Shown one piece after another: positions 33,564-39,856 of a stretch of DNA of 42,335 bases (within the stretch, counting starts at the first letter, position 1; the number at the start of each line of letters is the position of its first letter). Where the stretch lies: NCBI GenBank assembly GCA_016212505.1, contig JACRGB010000037.1, positions 1 through 42,335 on the forward strand. Direction: 5' to 3'. Below the pieces are notes generated by a model. The model worked only from the letters and a program-made list of their open reading frames with translations. It ran no database searches and was not told the origin of the DNA. Origin of the DNA: Microcaldota archaeon. Its GTDB lineage: Archaea; Micrarchaeota; Micrarchaeia; Anstonellales; Bilamarchaeaceae. The position numbers were made by a program, and so were the translations under genes.

Positions 33564-33620
33564 TCCTACACGACCAGGATGTCCCAAGCCGACAGCGATG
33601 TACCAAACCGCGGGGTCGAT

Positions 33621-34202: not shown

Positions 34203-34343
34203 TTGCGTCAAGGCCATATTCAATTAATTTTAATCGAACAATGGCGAGGACTCTACGCGCTGTTTTGCGACTTGCTTTACAGAATAACTCTGTACGCGAC
34301 TCTCAAGGCATCCTCCATACAAAAGTATGAAACATGGCCTTGT
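34203..34343 (-). other. BHB-type 23S rRNA intron next to helix 71 (141 nt)
   Basis: In the transcript, exon GCGU pairs with intron ACGC as the 4-bp central helix. Bulges are AAA and AAU, the intron helix is CAAGGCCAU/AUGGCCUUG (9 bp) and the outer helix AGGU/ACCU. Cutting after the second bulge base joins AGGUAGCGUAA to UACCUCGCCGC, which matches the archaeal consensus GGUAGCGUA-R-UACCUUGCCGC (about E. coli 1938/1939). The intron interior has three hairpins and no protein-coding frame. Confidence 0.9.
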
Positions 34344-34354
34344 TTACGCTACCT

Positions 34355-34390
34355 GTCTCCTTTATTAAGAGCGTTCTGCTCCTCTTTTAT
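34355..34390 (-). other. BHB-like 23S rRNA intron between H69 and H71 (36 nt)
   Basis: Exon CUCU pairs with intron GGAG (4 bp, one G-U). Bulges are UAA and ACA, and the outer helix is ACC/GGU. Cutting after the second bulge base joins GACCCUCUUA to AGGUAGCG, restoring the universal CUUAAGGUAGCG (about E. coli 1927/1928). The intron holds a near-duplicate CUCUUAAUAAARGAG twice. The intron-side helix is less adjacent than in the others, so the BHB is relaxed. Confidence 0.75.
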
Positions 34391-34405
34391 TAAGAGGGTC
34401 AGAGT

Positions 34406-34453
34406 TAGGAGTTATAATTTTCAAACCCAAGACTGGGAACTGAAAACAATAAT
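34406..34453 (-). other. BHB-type 23S rRNA intron in the helix 69 loop (48 nt)
   Basis: Exon GGGG pairs with intron CUCC (one G-U) as the 4-bp central helix. Both bulges read UAA. The intron helix UUAU/AUAA follows directly, then UUUUC/GAAAA. Cutting after UA in each bulge joins GGGGGUA to ACUCUGACCCUC, giving helix 69 as GGGGG-UAACUCUGA-CCCUC. The stem shows a compensatory G-C for the A-U in Haloarcula. The insertion splits the loop that forms inter-subunit bridge B2a, about E. coli 1912/1913. Confidence 0.85.
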
Positions 34454-34766
34454 TACCCCCGCTCTTTACCAGCCCTTCTTCCGATTGAAATCGGCGTTCA
34501 GGTACTAGCAGTGAGCAGACGTCAGCCACCATACGCACCCTTTCGGGTCTGCGGTGACCTGTGTTTTTGGTAAACAGTCGCACTCCCCTTGTTACTAAGA
34601 CCTCCGCATTACTCATGCGAAGGCACCCCTTATCCCTAAGTTACAGGGCTAACTTGCCGAGTTCCCTTACCTAAGTTTCCCTGCCACATCTTAGCCTTTT
34701 CAGCTAGAGCACCTGTACTGGTTCTTGGTACGATTATGAAAGGTCGTTCCATTCTCCTGTACGATT

Positions 34767-34834: not shown

Positions 34835-36472
34835 CCAATTTTCATGGGCCCCTGGATTCAATTTTGTTACCCCTACAAGTTTTGTCCGCTTCTCCTCACA
34901 ATGAGACTCCACGGAGTTACTCTTTTCAGACGGCTTGATGCCGCAAAACATATCCAAAGGCGTCAGAGAAATGGCCGCATTACTGCAAACCTACTTCCAT
35001 AGGACCGGAATATTAACCGGTTTCCCTAATTTCGACTAGTCGGAGTTACCTCAAGTCTTAGGATCGCCTAACCCTCAGCTGAAGAACGTGGCTGAGGAAT
35101 CCTTGCTCTATAAGATGTATGGAATTCTCGTCCATATTTGCTGCTACTAACATCAGGATATTCGTAACAGGCCGCTCCACACGTCGTTACCGACGTGCTT
35201 CGAGGCGACCCGTTCGCCCCCTTAACCAATGTTTTTTACATTGATGAGGTATCGGAAGCTGGTTTGAGCCCCGTGAATTTTCAGAGTCTGCACTCTCGAT
35301 CGGTCCGCTATTACGCGTTGTTTAAAGGGTGGCTGCTTCTAAGCCTACCTCCCGATTGTTTTAGAATGGAGACTCGTTCCAGATTAACACTTAACCAGCA
35401 TTTAGGGCCCTTAGCCTCATGTACGGTCGTTCCCGTAAGGGACCACAGACTTACTCCGTAATCCCGACTGCCTCCTTCTACGTAGATATAGCATTCGGAG
35501 TTTGAGAAGATGGCGACCCCTTTCGGAGCCAATCCGCCTAATCGGTGCTCTACCGCTATATCTTACTCCAGAGACGCTGTCCTGAGAGACATTTCAGAGG
35601 GAACCCGCTATCGCCGTGTTCGACAGGACTATCACCCCTACACCCAAGTCACCTAAGAGGAATATACCATCAATAGTTGCGGACCTCCATCATTCGTCAG
35701 AATGACTTCATCCTGCTCGGGCGTAGTTCACTACGGCTTCGGGTCTACTCAGAGTGACTGATCGCGAATTACCACGACATCCCTGGCCCTTGCGGGTTGC
35801 GGAATATTGCTTTCGCTTCGACTTTCGTCTCGCCACGCCAAATAACTCCCTGACTCTTGCTTCGAGAAGAAAGATTTGACACTGGTTAATCCGTGTCGGA
35901 ATTCCCGTTGCCAGAAACACCTACCACAGACCTGCCCTTTGATGCCAAACCATTCTGTAACCACTTAATTTCAGGTTCTTTTCACACTCATTCCTGAGTG
36001 CTTTTCAGCATTCGCTCGCGCTACTGATTCGCTATCGGTCTTATGCCTCATATTTAGATTTAGGGCTCGATAGCCCCATGTTCATGCCCCCTATCCAGAG
36101 GACACTACTCTTCTTGGATCGTTCCCTCGTGCTTCACTTACGAGACTGTTACTCGCTATGGTGTCGTATTCCAGCGGACTTCAGTTCACACAAAGGATAC
36201 TCCCCGCCACATCTACCACCTGGTTACCCAAATGGAATTCAGCTAGATCTAACCGGCTTTCACTCGCTGTTACTAACCGGATCACAATTGTTTTCTTTTC
36301 CACCCCCTACTAAGATGCTTCATTTCGGGGGGTTGCTACACATTACTGTGTTCAGACAGACCCCTGGATCAAAGACTGCGTGCGTCTACCCAGGGCGTTT
36401 CGCCGCTTGCCGCGTGTCCGTGCGGGCATAAGCCAAGCCATCCACTAAGTGGCGTGTATTACAGCATATGGT

Positions 36473-36856: not shown

Positions 36857-37525
36857 ATGAATATATTTGAAAAATGGTCCTGGATAAAAAGAAACTGGCC
36901 ATACATTATTGAAGAAGCAGACAAACTCGGCTTGGTATTTGTAGGCGGAACAGCGCTCAGTCTTATCCTTTTTGAAGAATACCGGGCATCTGAGGATATT
37001 GATCTTTACAATCCGAATTCCAAAGGAATAGATAATCCTAACGGCAAGAGTGAAGAAGAATTGATCATTCAACTATCTGATAAATTAAGCAAAAAAGGGT
37101 TTGATATTAAGAAAATAGATGGGAATTCTGCTTATGTTGGGCCTAATATCAAAATTGAAATTTTTTATGATGGCACTCCTTTTCAAAAAATTGAGAGAGT
37201 AAAAATGAGCGATATCAAAGTTCCAGTGTTTGATATCGGAACTTATGCCAAAATGAAAATGGCTGCTCTTCTATGCAGAACGATTTACGATCCAAGGGAT
37301 TTGGTTGACGTTTTTATCATTCAAAAAAACACGAAATTGCCTTTTCCAGACAGGGATTGTAGCATCATAGAAAACTCTTTAGAAGAGCGCATAAAAGAGA
37401 TAAGTAAAACTAGAAAAGAAGATCTTGCCCTTTTTCAAAGCAAAGAGCAGATCGATTCCCTTCCATATCCAGATTTCGAAAAATTCAAGAGGTGGTTAGT
37501 TGAGTGGCTATCCGGATTTTGTTAA
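36857..37525 (+). CDS. AbiEii-like nucleotidyltransferase toxin
   Basis: The N-terminal block FVGGTALSLILFEEYRASED followed by IDLY gives the AbiEii nucleotidyltransferase signature (GGTAL...R.SeDiDl; the two Asp bind metal). Later blocks include IKIEIFYDGTPF and FDIGTYAKMKMAALLCRTIY (family '~~~~~~~~~l~a~K~~Al~~R...rDl~D'). Members of this family act as toxins in type IV toxin-antitoxin systems, some by adding nucleotides to tRNA 3' ends. The gene is divergent from the 23S gene and overlaps the next gene by 26 nt, so they are co-transcribed. Confidence 0.88.
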   Translation: MNIFEKWSWIKRNWPYIIEEADKLGLVFVGGTALSLILFEEYRASEDIDLYNPNSKGIDNPNGKSEEELIIQLSDKLSKKGFDIKKIDGNSAYVGPNIKIEIFYDGTPFQKIERVKMSDIKVPVFDIGTYAKMKMAALLCRTIYDPRDLVDVFIIQKNTKLPFPDRDCSIIENSLEERIKEISKTRKEDLALFQSKEQIDSLPYPDFEKFKRWLVEWLSGFC

Positions 37526-38087
37526 AAAATTCAAGCAAGGAAGTTTTGTAAGTTCCTCGGAATTATCAAGGAAAATCAGCCTGCCTAAGGCCCTCTCTTC
37601 GCTTTATATAATTCCGACCTTTTTCAGAGGCACTTACTATATTCCATCATTACGAGAGAGAAAAGGTCAATTTATCGATCGGCCAATGGAATTTTTTTCC
37701 AATCTTTTTAATTTTGTATATGGCAGGAAAAACTGGTACTGGGCACTCAGCACTGCTGCAAGATATTATGGGAGTGAATGGAGTGCAACAAAAATCCTGG
37801 AATTAGTTTGCGTAAAAGAATCAAAAACAATTGATGTTTTAGGCAGAGTAGTTTCACTTGAGAAAAAAACCTCCTACCGCTCAAAAATATTGTCAAAAAT
37901 GCTTTCTTCTTTGAGCATAAACCTCATAGTAGTTCACAAAGGAAAAAAGAATTTTCTAAATGAAATAAAAATTGACGATGAGCTTGGCCCTGTAGCTACC
38001 AAAGATCGACTAAGAAAAGATGTGGAGTTTTTTATCTCTAAAACTAAAATTTTATCCTTGAGAAGGCTTTATAGAAAATATCGTTAG
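37500..38087 (+). CDS. AbiEi-like antitoxin/partner of the nucleotidyltransferase
   Basis: The 195-residue product opens at TTG 37500, with GAGGTGG just upstream inside the toxin gene. GSFVSSSELSRKISLPKALS looks like a winged helix-turn-helix, and RKNWYWALSTAARYYGSEWS resembles the AbiEi_4 antitoxin core ('~~Yyis~~sAl~~hG'). The basic C-terminal region (KTKILSLRRLYRKYR) may bind nucleic acid. Gene order toxin then partner is the reverse of the classic abiEi-abiEii. The pairing rests on overlap and these features. Confidence 0.65.
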   Translation: MSGYPDFVKKFKQGSFVSSSELSRKISLPKALSSLYIIPTFFRGTYYIPSLRERKGQFIDRPMEFFSNLFNFVYGRKNWYWALSTAARYYGSEWSATKILELVCVKESKTIDVLGRVVSLEKKTSYRSKILSKMLSSLSINLIVVHKGKKNFLNEIKIDDELGPVATKDRLRKDVEFFISKTKILSLRRLYRKYR

Positions 38088-38875: not shown

Positions 38876-39856
38876 ATGCAATCCCCCAGCAGACTTCATA
38901 CGAGCCTAGCTAAAACAATAGCATCAGGCGATTCAGTATCTCCCAGGCCATCCGGTCCACCACCTAGATTCATATTTAAGCCTACTATGGACGCTCCGTT
39001 AATTGTTGATATTAGGCATCCAATAGGTGCAGGTGGATTGTCAGTTGTATACCCTGCTAGGGTTTTATGTAGCAACAGAAAACTGGCAGTTAAACATCTT
39101 AAACCCGAATTAAGGGGAAATCAGTTCGCTGTCCAAGGTTTTGTAAGGGAAGCTAAGATCTTAGATCATCTTAATCGAGAATTAGCACGGTTATATCCTG
39201 GTACTGATTCAAATCCACGCCCCATCCCACAATCATATGGCCTTATCGAACTAAATGGCCACTTGTTTTCGGTACTTGAACTTCTTGATGGTTCAGACCT
39301 TACGTATCATTTGCCACATCTTTCTACGCGGGAAACTGTGGCATTGGGAATAGAAACACTAGATGCTCTTGAGCTTATCCATGCGCTGGGAGTTTTACAC
39401 CATGACCTAAAACCTTCAAACGTATTCCTTCATGGACCCGGAGGGCATCCAAAGATTTTAGATTTTGGGGTTTCGAGATTTGCACAGGATAGGGAAGTTC
39501 CAGCTACTATAGAAGGTACGCCTGCTTATCTTGCACCTGAACGTGCTAATTGTGAGCCAGGAAGCAGACTTTCAGATTTGTATTCTTTTGGAGTTATGTT
39601 ATACGAGCAAATAACCGGAAGATTGCCATTTATACCGACTGCTTCTGAAGAAAATGCTGCAAACCTCCAACTTGTATCCATGCACCTTCACGAACCTCCT
39701 GCGTTTGCCTCTGTGTACAATCCTTTACTTCCGGACGCTTTAGTTAAGTTAGTTTCAGGATTGCTTGCAAAAAACCCTAACGACCGGCCAGCAACTGCCG
39801 CTGCAGTTAAAAGAGAACTTGAAGGCATACTTCCCGAGATTTCTCAACCAGATTAA
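38876..39856 (+). CDS. Hanks-type (PknB-like) serine/threonine protein kinase
   Basis: A complete eukaryote-like kinase domain of about 280 residues. The glycine loop is IGAGGLSVVY (50-59). The invariant Lys is K73 in LAVKHL and the helix C Glu is E92. The catalytic loop LHHDLKPSNVF (HHD for HRD; D177, N182) is followed by DFG (196-198), APE (220-222), the SDLYSFGVMLYE Asp, and the late Arg in NPNDRPATA. A disordered Ser/Pro-rich N-terminus of about 35 residues precedes it. There is no transmembrane helix or PASTA domain, so it is soluble. Sequence style is bacterial, and transfer is plausible. Confidence 0.93.
   Translation: MQSPSRLHTSLAKTIASGDSVSPRPSGPPPRFIFKPTMDAPLIVDIRHPIGAGGLSVVYPARVLCSNRKLAVKHLKPELRGNQFAVQGFVREAKILDHLNRELARLYPGTDSNPRPIPQSYGLIELNGHLFSVLELLDGSDLTYHLPHLSTRETVALGIETLDALELIHALGVLHHDLKPSNVFLHGPGGHPKILDFGVSRFAQDREVPATIEGTPAYLAPERANCEPGSRLSDLYSFGVMLYEQITGRLPFIPTASEENAANLQLVSMHLHEPPAFASVYNPLLPDALVKLVSGLLAKNPNDRPATAAAVKRELEGILPEISQPD

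Follow-up and report, generated by a model that had tools for sequence, protein, structure and literature searches.

Organization of the locus

The window, the whole 42,335-nt stretch of DNA analysed here, is contig 25 of a draft Micrarchaeota genome (G000; 46 contigs, 90% complete). Its phylum is identified through G279, a genome of the same phylum set whose compared stretch is identical with that of L028, a named Micrarchaeota record, and through the ARMAN-2 type of its splicing endonuclease. The window contains the sole 23S rRNA gene of the 1.48-Mb assembly, and the 16S gene lies on a separate contig. The 23S gene aligns with the full-length archaeal model, and three insertions interrupt it in the loop of helix 69, which contacts the decoding centre, and in the adjoining single strand, leaving two micro-exons between them. 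The E. coli numbering used below is our own mapping and agrees with the LSU/1923 group I site in PMC6125680.

33136–36470, minus strand: 23S rRNA gene (Rfam RF02540, 2201 bits, model positions 1–2987)
34406–34453, minus strand: predicted intron 1 (48 nt), after E. coli A1912 in the helix 69 loop; site empty in 12 relatives and interrupted in the L028/L116 species
34391–34405, minus strand: micro-exon 2 (15 nt, ACUCUGACCCUCUUA)
34355–34390, minus strand: predicted intron 2 (36 nt), after A1927
34344–34354, minus strand: micro-exon 3 (11 nt, AGGUAGCGUAA)
34203–34343, minus strand: predicted intron 3 (141 nt), after A1938; same-site family in G002, G020 and G028
34334–34349, minus strand: 5′ arm of the intron 3 BHB, GCGU (exon), AAA bulge, CAAGGCCAU
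34205–34217, minus strand: 3′ arm of the intron 3 BHB, AUGGCCUUG-ACGC, then AAU bulge

Two further inserts relative to sister 23S genes (81 nt at 34837–34757 and 77 nt at 33564–33488) resemble lengthened variable hairpins.

Junctions and BHB motifs

Joining the exons at 34454/34405, 34391/34354 and 34344/34202 gives GGGGGUAACUCUGACCCUCUUAAGGUAGCGUAAUACCUCGCC. Over this 42-nt string the predicted spliced product is letter for letter the uninterrupted gene of 12 relatives (eight of the same genus and four other family genomes), and splicing would thus leave the product unchanged with respect to them. Sequence alone lets junctions 1, 2 and 3 slide within 4, 2 and 3 positions, respectively, and the BHB register selects a single position for each. 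All three introns have a 4-bp central helix whose register fits cuts after the second bulge base, a rule that yields GGGGGUA-ACUCUGACCCUCUUA-AGGUAGCGUAA-UACCUCGCC.

The motifs differ in their flanking helices. Intron 1 has the central helix GGGG/CUCC, UAA in both bulges, an inner helix of 4 bp and, by a strict count, one outer pair. The central helix of intron 2, CUCU (34396–34393)/GGAG (34360–34357), is flanked by UAA and ACA bulges and a 3-bp outer helix (ACC/GGU), with essentially no inner helix (one inner pair); this motif is relaxed, of the hBH type. Intron 3 combines the central helix GCGU/ACGC with an inner stem of 13 bp in register, in which one pair is changed on both sides and two on one side across four homologues, too few sequences for significance. 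The RNAfold minimum-energy fold of the G002 precursor, which carries one of these homologues, includes both the BHB and helix 69. Dinucleotide shuffles, with every register compatible with the empty site admitted, equal the observed number of in-register pairs in 2.0% of cases for intron 1, 1.4% for intron 2 and 0 of 20,000 for intron 3. These statistics are strong for the three introns jointly and modest for introns 1 and 2 taken alone, for which we found no homologues.

EndA cleavage followed by RtcB ligation is the established route for archaeal introns, and we take it to apply here because the genome encodes both an epsilon2 EndA and RtcB. The EndA is of the ARMAN-2 type (match to 4FZ2 at E 1e-132), and its residues aligned to Y236, H251 and K282 and to the loop residues Y160 and K161 of ARMAN-2 are identical. 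Enzymes of the epsilon2 class cleave relaxed motifs (PMC6379350, PMC12397907). A second EndA-like protein of 189 aa (PF01974; contig C31, L107 1219–1788) lacks the catalytic Tyr and His at the aligned positions and is possibly a non-catalytic partner of the epsilon2 enzyme.

A sequence-only reading of this DNA had proposed three BHB introns at these junctions, with a relaxed motif in the 36-nt intron. On sequence grounds the first proposal is supported by the exact empty sites, the homologous introns and the encoded EndA and RtcB, and the second is borne out by a motif reduced to outer and central helices.

The inserts could alternatively remain unspliced, either as retained expansion segments or as breaks between 23S fragments held together without ligation, and both retained inserts and fragmented rRNAs occur in other organisms. 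We consider this improbable, since the inserts split a loop and an adjoining strand that relatives keep letter for letter, all three show BHB pairing in register with the empty site, and the enzymes for their removal are encoded.

Antisense elements in the intron 3 family

Introns homologous to intron 3 occupy the same site, L1938, in G002, G020 and G028, three family genomes without introns 1 and 2. The loop of intron 3 contains two elements complementary to the helix-69 exon, enclosed by a short helix, P2; the sequence-only reading had not noted them.

34310–34315, minus strand: 5′ arm of P2, GAGGAU, pairing with GUCCUC at 34251–34246 and enclosing elements A and B
34300–34310, minus strand: antisense element A (UGCCUUGAGAG), complementary to exon CUCUUA/AGGUA across the intron 2 junction (6+5 nt)
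34281–34292, minus strand: antisense element B (CAGAGUUAUUCU), complementary to exon GGGGUA/ACUCUG across the intron 1 junction (6+6 nt); the last four pairs include G–U
34246–34251, minus strand: 3′ arm of P2, GUCCUC

The P2 arms are complementary in all four introns (GAGGAC/GUCCUC, GAGGAUU/AAUCCUC; consensus GAGGAY/RUCCUC). Element A reads GCCUUGAGAG or GCCUUAAGA, and element B, with the core GAGUU, follows 5–7 nt further on. Across the family, A is complementary to CUCUUAAGGU(A) and B to (GG)UAACUC(UG).

When the spliced 3110-nt 23S rRNA is scanned for paired, ordered antisense present in all four introns, the helix-69 window ranks first (minimum score 41.5, next 29.0), in a test whose windows were picked after the motif had been noticed. 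The best score among 12 shuffled targets is 30.5, and none of 2000 column permutations of the four-intron alignment reaches the observed value (highest 32.5). The ranking depends on the combined requirement: when any one complementary helix is allowed, the whole 23S offers stronger matches than helix 69, and only the paired, ordered, four-genome criterion picks it out. RNAalifold, given the alignment as its sole input, proposes the same exon–intron pairs. Antisense pairing holds in 96% of cells against 33–45% in slid controls, while a shuffle control is uninformative and true covariation is not visible because the exons are invariant across the homologues. The potential of A and B to pair with the helix-69 exon is thus well supported at the level of sequence.

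Enforcing both pairings costs only 0.7–3.6 kcal/mol across the four precursors, even with loss of the native helix 69. Element A overlaps the GGUA required by the outer helix of intron 3, and pairing of A and B with the exon would either create a pseudoknot with the BHB stem or take its place. From their complementarity, we propose that A and B form an exon-binding element, perhaps a ligation splint. Splinting cannot have been the original reason for keeping them, because G002, G020 and G028 have no introns 1 and 2 to splint across.

A and B might instead constitute a guide RNA for modification of helix 69, of the box C/D or H/ACA type, like the archaeal tRNA-Trp intron. Two antisense elements do face a heavily modified helix, and some introns are known to encode C/D guides (Singh et al. 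2004, as cited in PMC4090602). The introns themselves do not fit either class: a CTGA box D is present in none of the four and no C box lies within one mismatch near the elements, while for H/ACA the spacing of ~5–7 nt leaves no room for an upper stem and 3–6 target bases separate the duplexes where two are expected. We give a guide function little credence and favour the exon-binding reading of the two elements.

Distribution among relatives and probable mobility

Among family genomes in which the region is present, 12 are uninterrupted and four (G000, G002, G020 and G028) carry the L1938 intron; in several other MAGs contig ends fall exactly here. G012, G027 and G030 (L090, L095 and L092) have inserts of ~700 nt at L1923 (CCCTC / CTTAAGG); these contain a LAGLIDADG frame, and their 3′ domain is group-I-like but scores under the Rfam group I threshold. 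Elsewhere in the 23S gene, G003 (L006) carries a 347-nt insert at GTACGTCGCG / AGACAGTACGG, which is probably L2593.

Downstream of the L1938 site, G028 contig C97 shares 96.8% identity with G000 yet is binned with another genus, and may therefore be misbinned. G002 belongs to the same genus as G000, but the 58 nt of exon upstream of its intron match genus g2 (G020, G022) at 94.8% identity and its own genus at no more than 82.8%, whereas downstream of the site its identity is 91–92% with most of its close congeners and 77% with G020. The G002 intron shares 79% identity with the G020 intron and 54% with the G000 intron. From these identities, the G002 intron and its flanking exon look like a transfer from a g2-like donor; a chimeric contig is possible, as the upstream stretch is short and ends at the contig border. 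Downstream of the L1938 intron, G002 (L093) carries another insert, this one in helix 71 (GGCGG / CTTGCATGAATG), whose frame is a weak match to LAGLIDADG_3.

Two of the three sites are also used in a distant Micrarchaeota species (L028, identical with L116), recorded independently in two collections. It has a 37-nt intron with a perfect BHB at L1912 and another BHB intron, of 62 nt, at L1938, both unrelated to those of G000, and no intron at L1927; G279 is identical over the compared stretch. Intron 1 gains further support because a different, canonical BHB intron sits at its site in this species. The L1938 intron of L028 has no colinear antisense. In the same species, the 16S gene spans 2655 nt (L028 4944–7598), with a eukaryotic SSU model as its best match and a group I intron match at its end, and a long-intron tRNA lies between the 16S and 23S genes (L028 4770–4996; the species of G279).

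Wider pattern scans add no further cases. Among 301 genomes of the phylum, the exact L1927 intron pattern matches G000 only. The L1912 intron pattern GGTAAANNGCGGGRGTAAD has 50 matches across 84,980 species, with L028 the sole interrupted archaeal rRNA among them, in a scan that divergent exons would escape. Matches of the phylum scan in G103 and G148 are due to chance, as are three matches of the L1938 intron start in viral contigs, all within protein genes.

An assembly error, chimera or dead gene copy is very improbable: the source is a 46-contig draft and the intron 2 sequence has no homologue elsewhere, but this is the sole 23S gene of a 90% complete genome, its alignment covers the archaeal model in full, other assemblies also contain intron 3 homologues, and L1912 and L1938 are also used in the independently recorded L028/L116 species.

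Equally remote is the view that intron 3 is a self-splicing group I intron or a descendant of one. The LAGLIDADG-bearing inserts at L1923 lie close by, Micrarchaeota are known to carry group I introns at both L1923 and L1931, and BHB introns have been proposed as group I intron descendants (PMC6125680). A search of intron 3 against Rfam returns neither a group I intron nor any other known RNA, even at E 10, and the whole window gives no group I match at the gathering threshold; intron 3 is 141 nt long, lies at a different site, and has a BHB stem with one pair changed on both sides. The introns (36–141 nt) contain no homing endonuclease frame, and the sole frame of the region (101 aa, 34203–34508, plus strand) runs antisense through the rRNA exons.

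Proposed splicing of the precursor

The best explanation of the locus as a whole, which we consider highly probable, is that the pre-23S rRNA contains three BHB introns spliced by EndA and RtcB, the third of them an L1938-family intron with exon-pairing elements that are a possible splint. At each bulge the epsilon2 EndA would cleave after the second of the three bases, and RtcB would join four pieces, the two rRNA halves and the 15-nt and 11-nt micro-exons, to restore helix 69 and the strand that runs on to helix 71.

Intron 3 would belong to a horizontally moving family at L1938, and its loop would offer A and B to the helix-69 exon, much as self-splicing introns do with their exon-binding or internal guide sequences. 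Most probably the elements work in cis within the precursor, where they would hold the 5′ exon and keep helix 69 open until splicing. In G000 this pairing would bridge the junctions of introns 1 and 2, holding exons 1, 2 and 3 in register during cutting and ligation, and intron 3 would be excised last. The splint would be a later use of A and B, which, more speculatively, perhaps made the region tolerant of extra introns. The full proposal, in which intron 3 is an exon-binding BHB intron that unfolds and holds the helix-69 exon, splints the micro-exons and imposes the order 1 and 2 before 3, is tentative, and we judge it more apt to fail than to hold.

The order of splicing bears on this proposal. 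The sequence-only reading had regarded ordered splicing as required and had suggested that the 36-nt intron may need prior removal of a neighbour. In our calculations, forming the intron 2 motif costs 6.5 kcal/mol in the full precursor, 6.2 with both neighbours removed, 5.8 without intron 1 and 9.7 without intron 3, in energy models that treat BHBs and pseudoknots poorly. These modelled energies indicate no compulsory order, neither requiring nor excluding one, and the similar costs in the full precursor and with both neighbours gone do not favour a need for prior removal. The outer helices of introns 2 and 3 compete for the same GGU of exon 3; their full motifs are therefore mutually exclusive, although relaxed forms can coexist.

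Relation to known introns

Group I and group II introns carry exon-binding or internal guide sequences, which base-pair with the adjacent 5′ exon close to the splice site and serve RNA catalysis. Intron 3, in contrast, is predicted to be protein-spliced, and its pairing lies across other junctions. L1927 is a known crenarchaeal intron site, and we know of no report of L1912 or L1938 as intron sites from a check that was not exhaustive.

The nearest class is that of the archaeal BHB rRNA introns of Thermoproteales and Desulfurococcales (PMC4496867, PMC2738675), which likewise interrupt conserved rRNA sites, are short or carry an ORF, and have a BHB, in some cases relaxed, where exon and intron meet. 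The G000 introns differ in their host phylum, in the epsilon2 enzyme, in the crowding of three within 26 nt of mature RNA without ORFs, and in the conserved antisense of one intron to its own exon. Contig KP308720 carries two group I introns 8 nt apart, IB4.7 at LSU/1923 and IB4.15 at LSU/1931 (PMC6125680 Table 1), so that there, too, a micro-exon separates introns within this core of archaeal 23S; those introns are self-splicing and two in number, whereas G000 has three of the BHB type. Some archaeal pre-tRNAs contain two or three introns (Sugahara et al. 2007/2008; reviewed in PMC6379350, PMC4090602) and likewise combine several BHB introns in a short RNA with relaxed motifs and a broad-specificity EndA. 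They are tRNAs rather than rRNAs, and no junction-bridging antisense element is known to have been reported in them.

BHB rRNA introns, relaxed motifs, multi-intron tRNAs and the 8-nt exon between group I introns in this region (PMC6125680) are therefore already known. To our knowledge, from a survey that covers the classical literature thinly, three BHB introns within 26 nt of 23S rRNA, the sites L1912 and L1938, and antisense in a BHB rRNA intron are new.

If the introns are spliced as proposed, the transcript of the sole 23S gene of this genome must be cut and religated three times within a stretch that amounts to 26 nt of mature RNA. Such a locus is an extreme case for asking how EndA and RtcB hold exons in register when the RNA is long, and whether the core folds only after splicing. 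The antisense elements point to an answer that can be tested directly, and they suggest that introns removed by proteins have a functional counterpart to the exon-binding sequences of self-splicing ones; if true, the exon-binding or splint reading would give protein-spliced introns a guide-sequence function. The mosaic gene of G002, in turn, points to inter-genus transfer of a short, ORF-less BHB intron, a type for which a mobility mechanism is not known.

The window also holds, just upstream of the 23S gene (36857–38087), an AbiEii-like nucleotidyltransferase (PF08843) and a following frame without assignment, possibly a type IV toxin-antitoxin pair, and, at 38876–39856, a protein kinase domain protein (PF00069) in a DPANN host.
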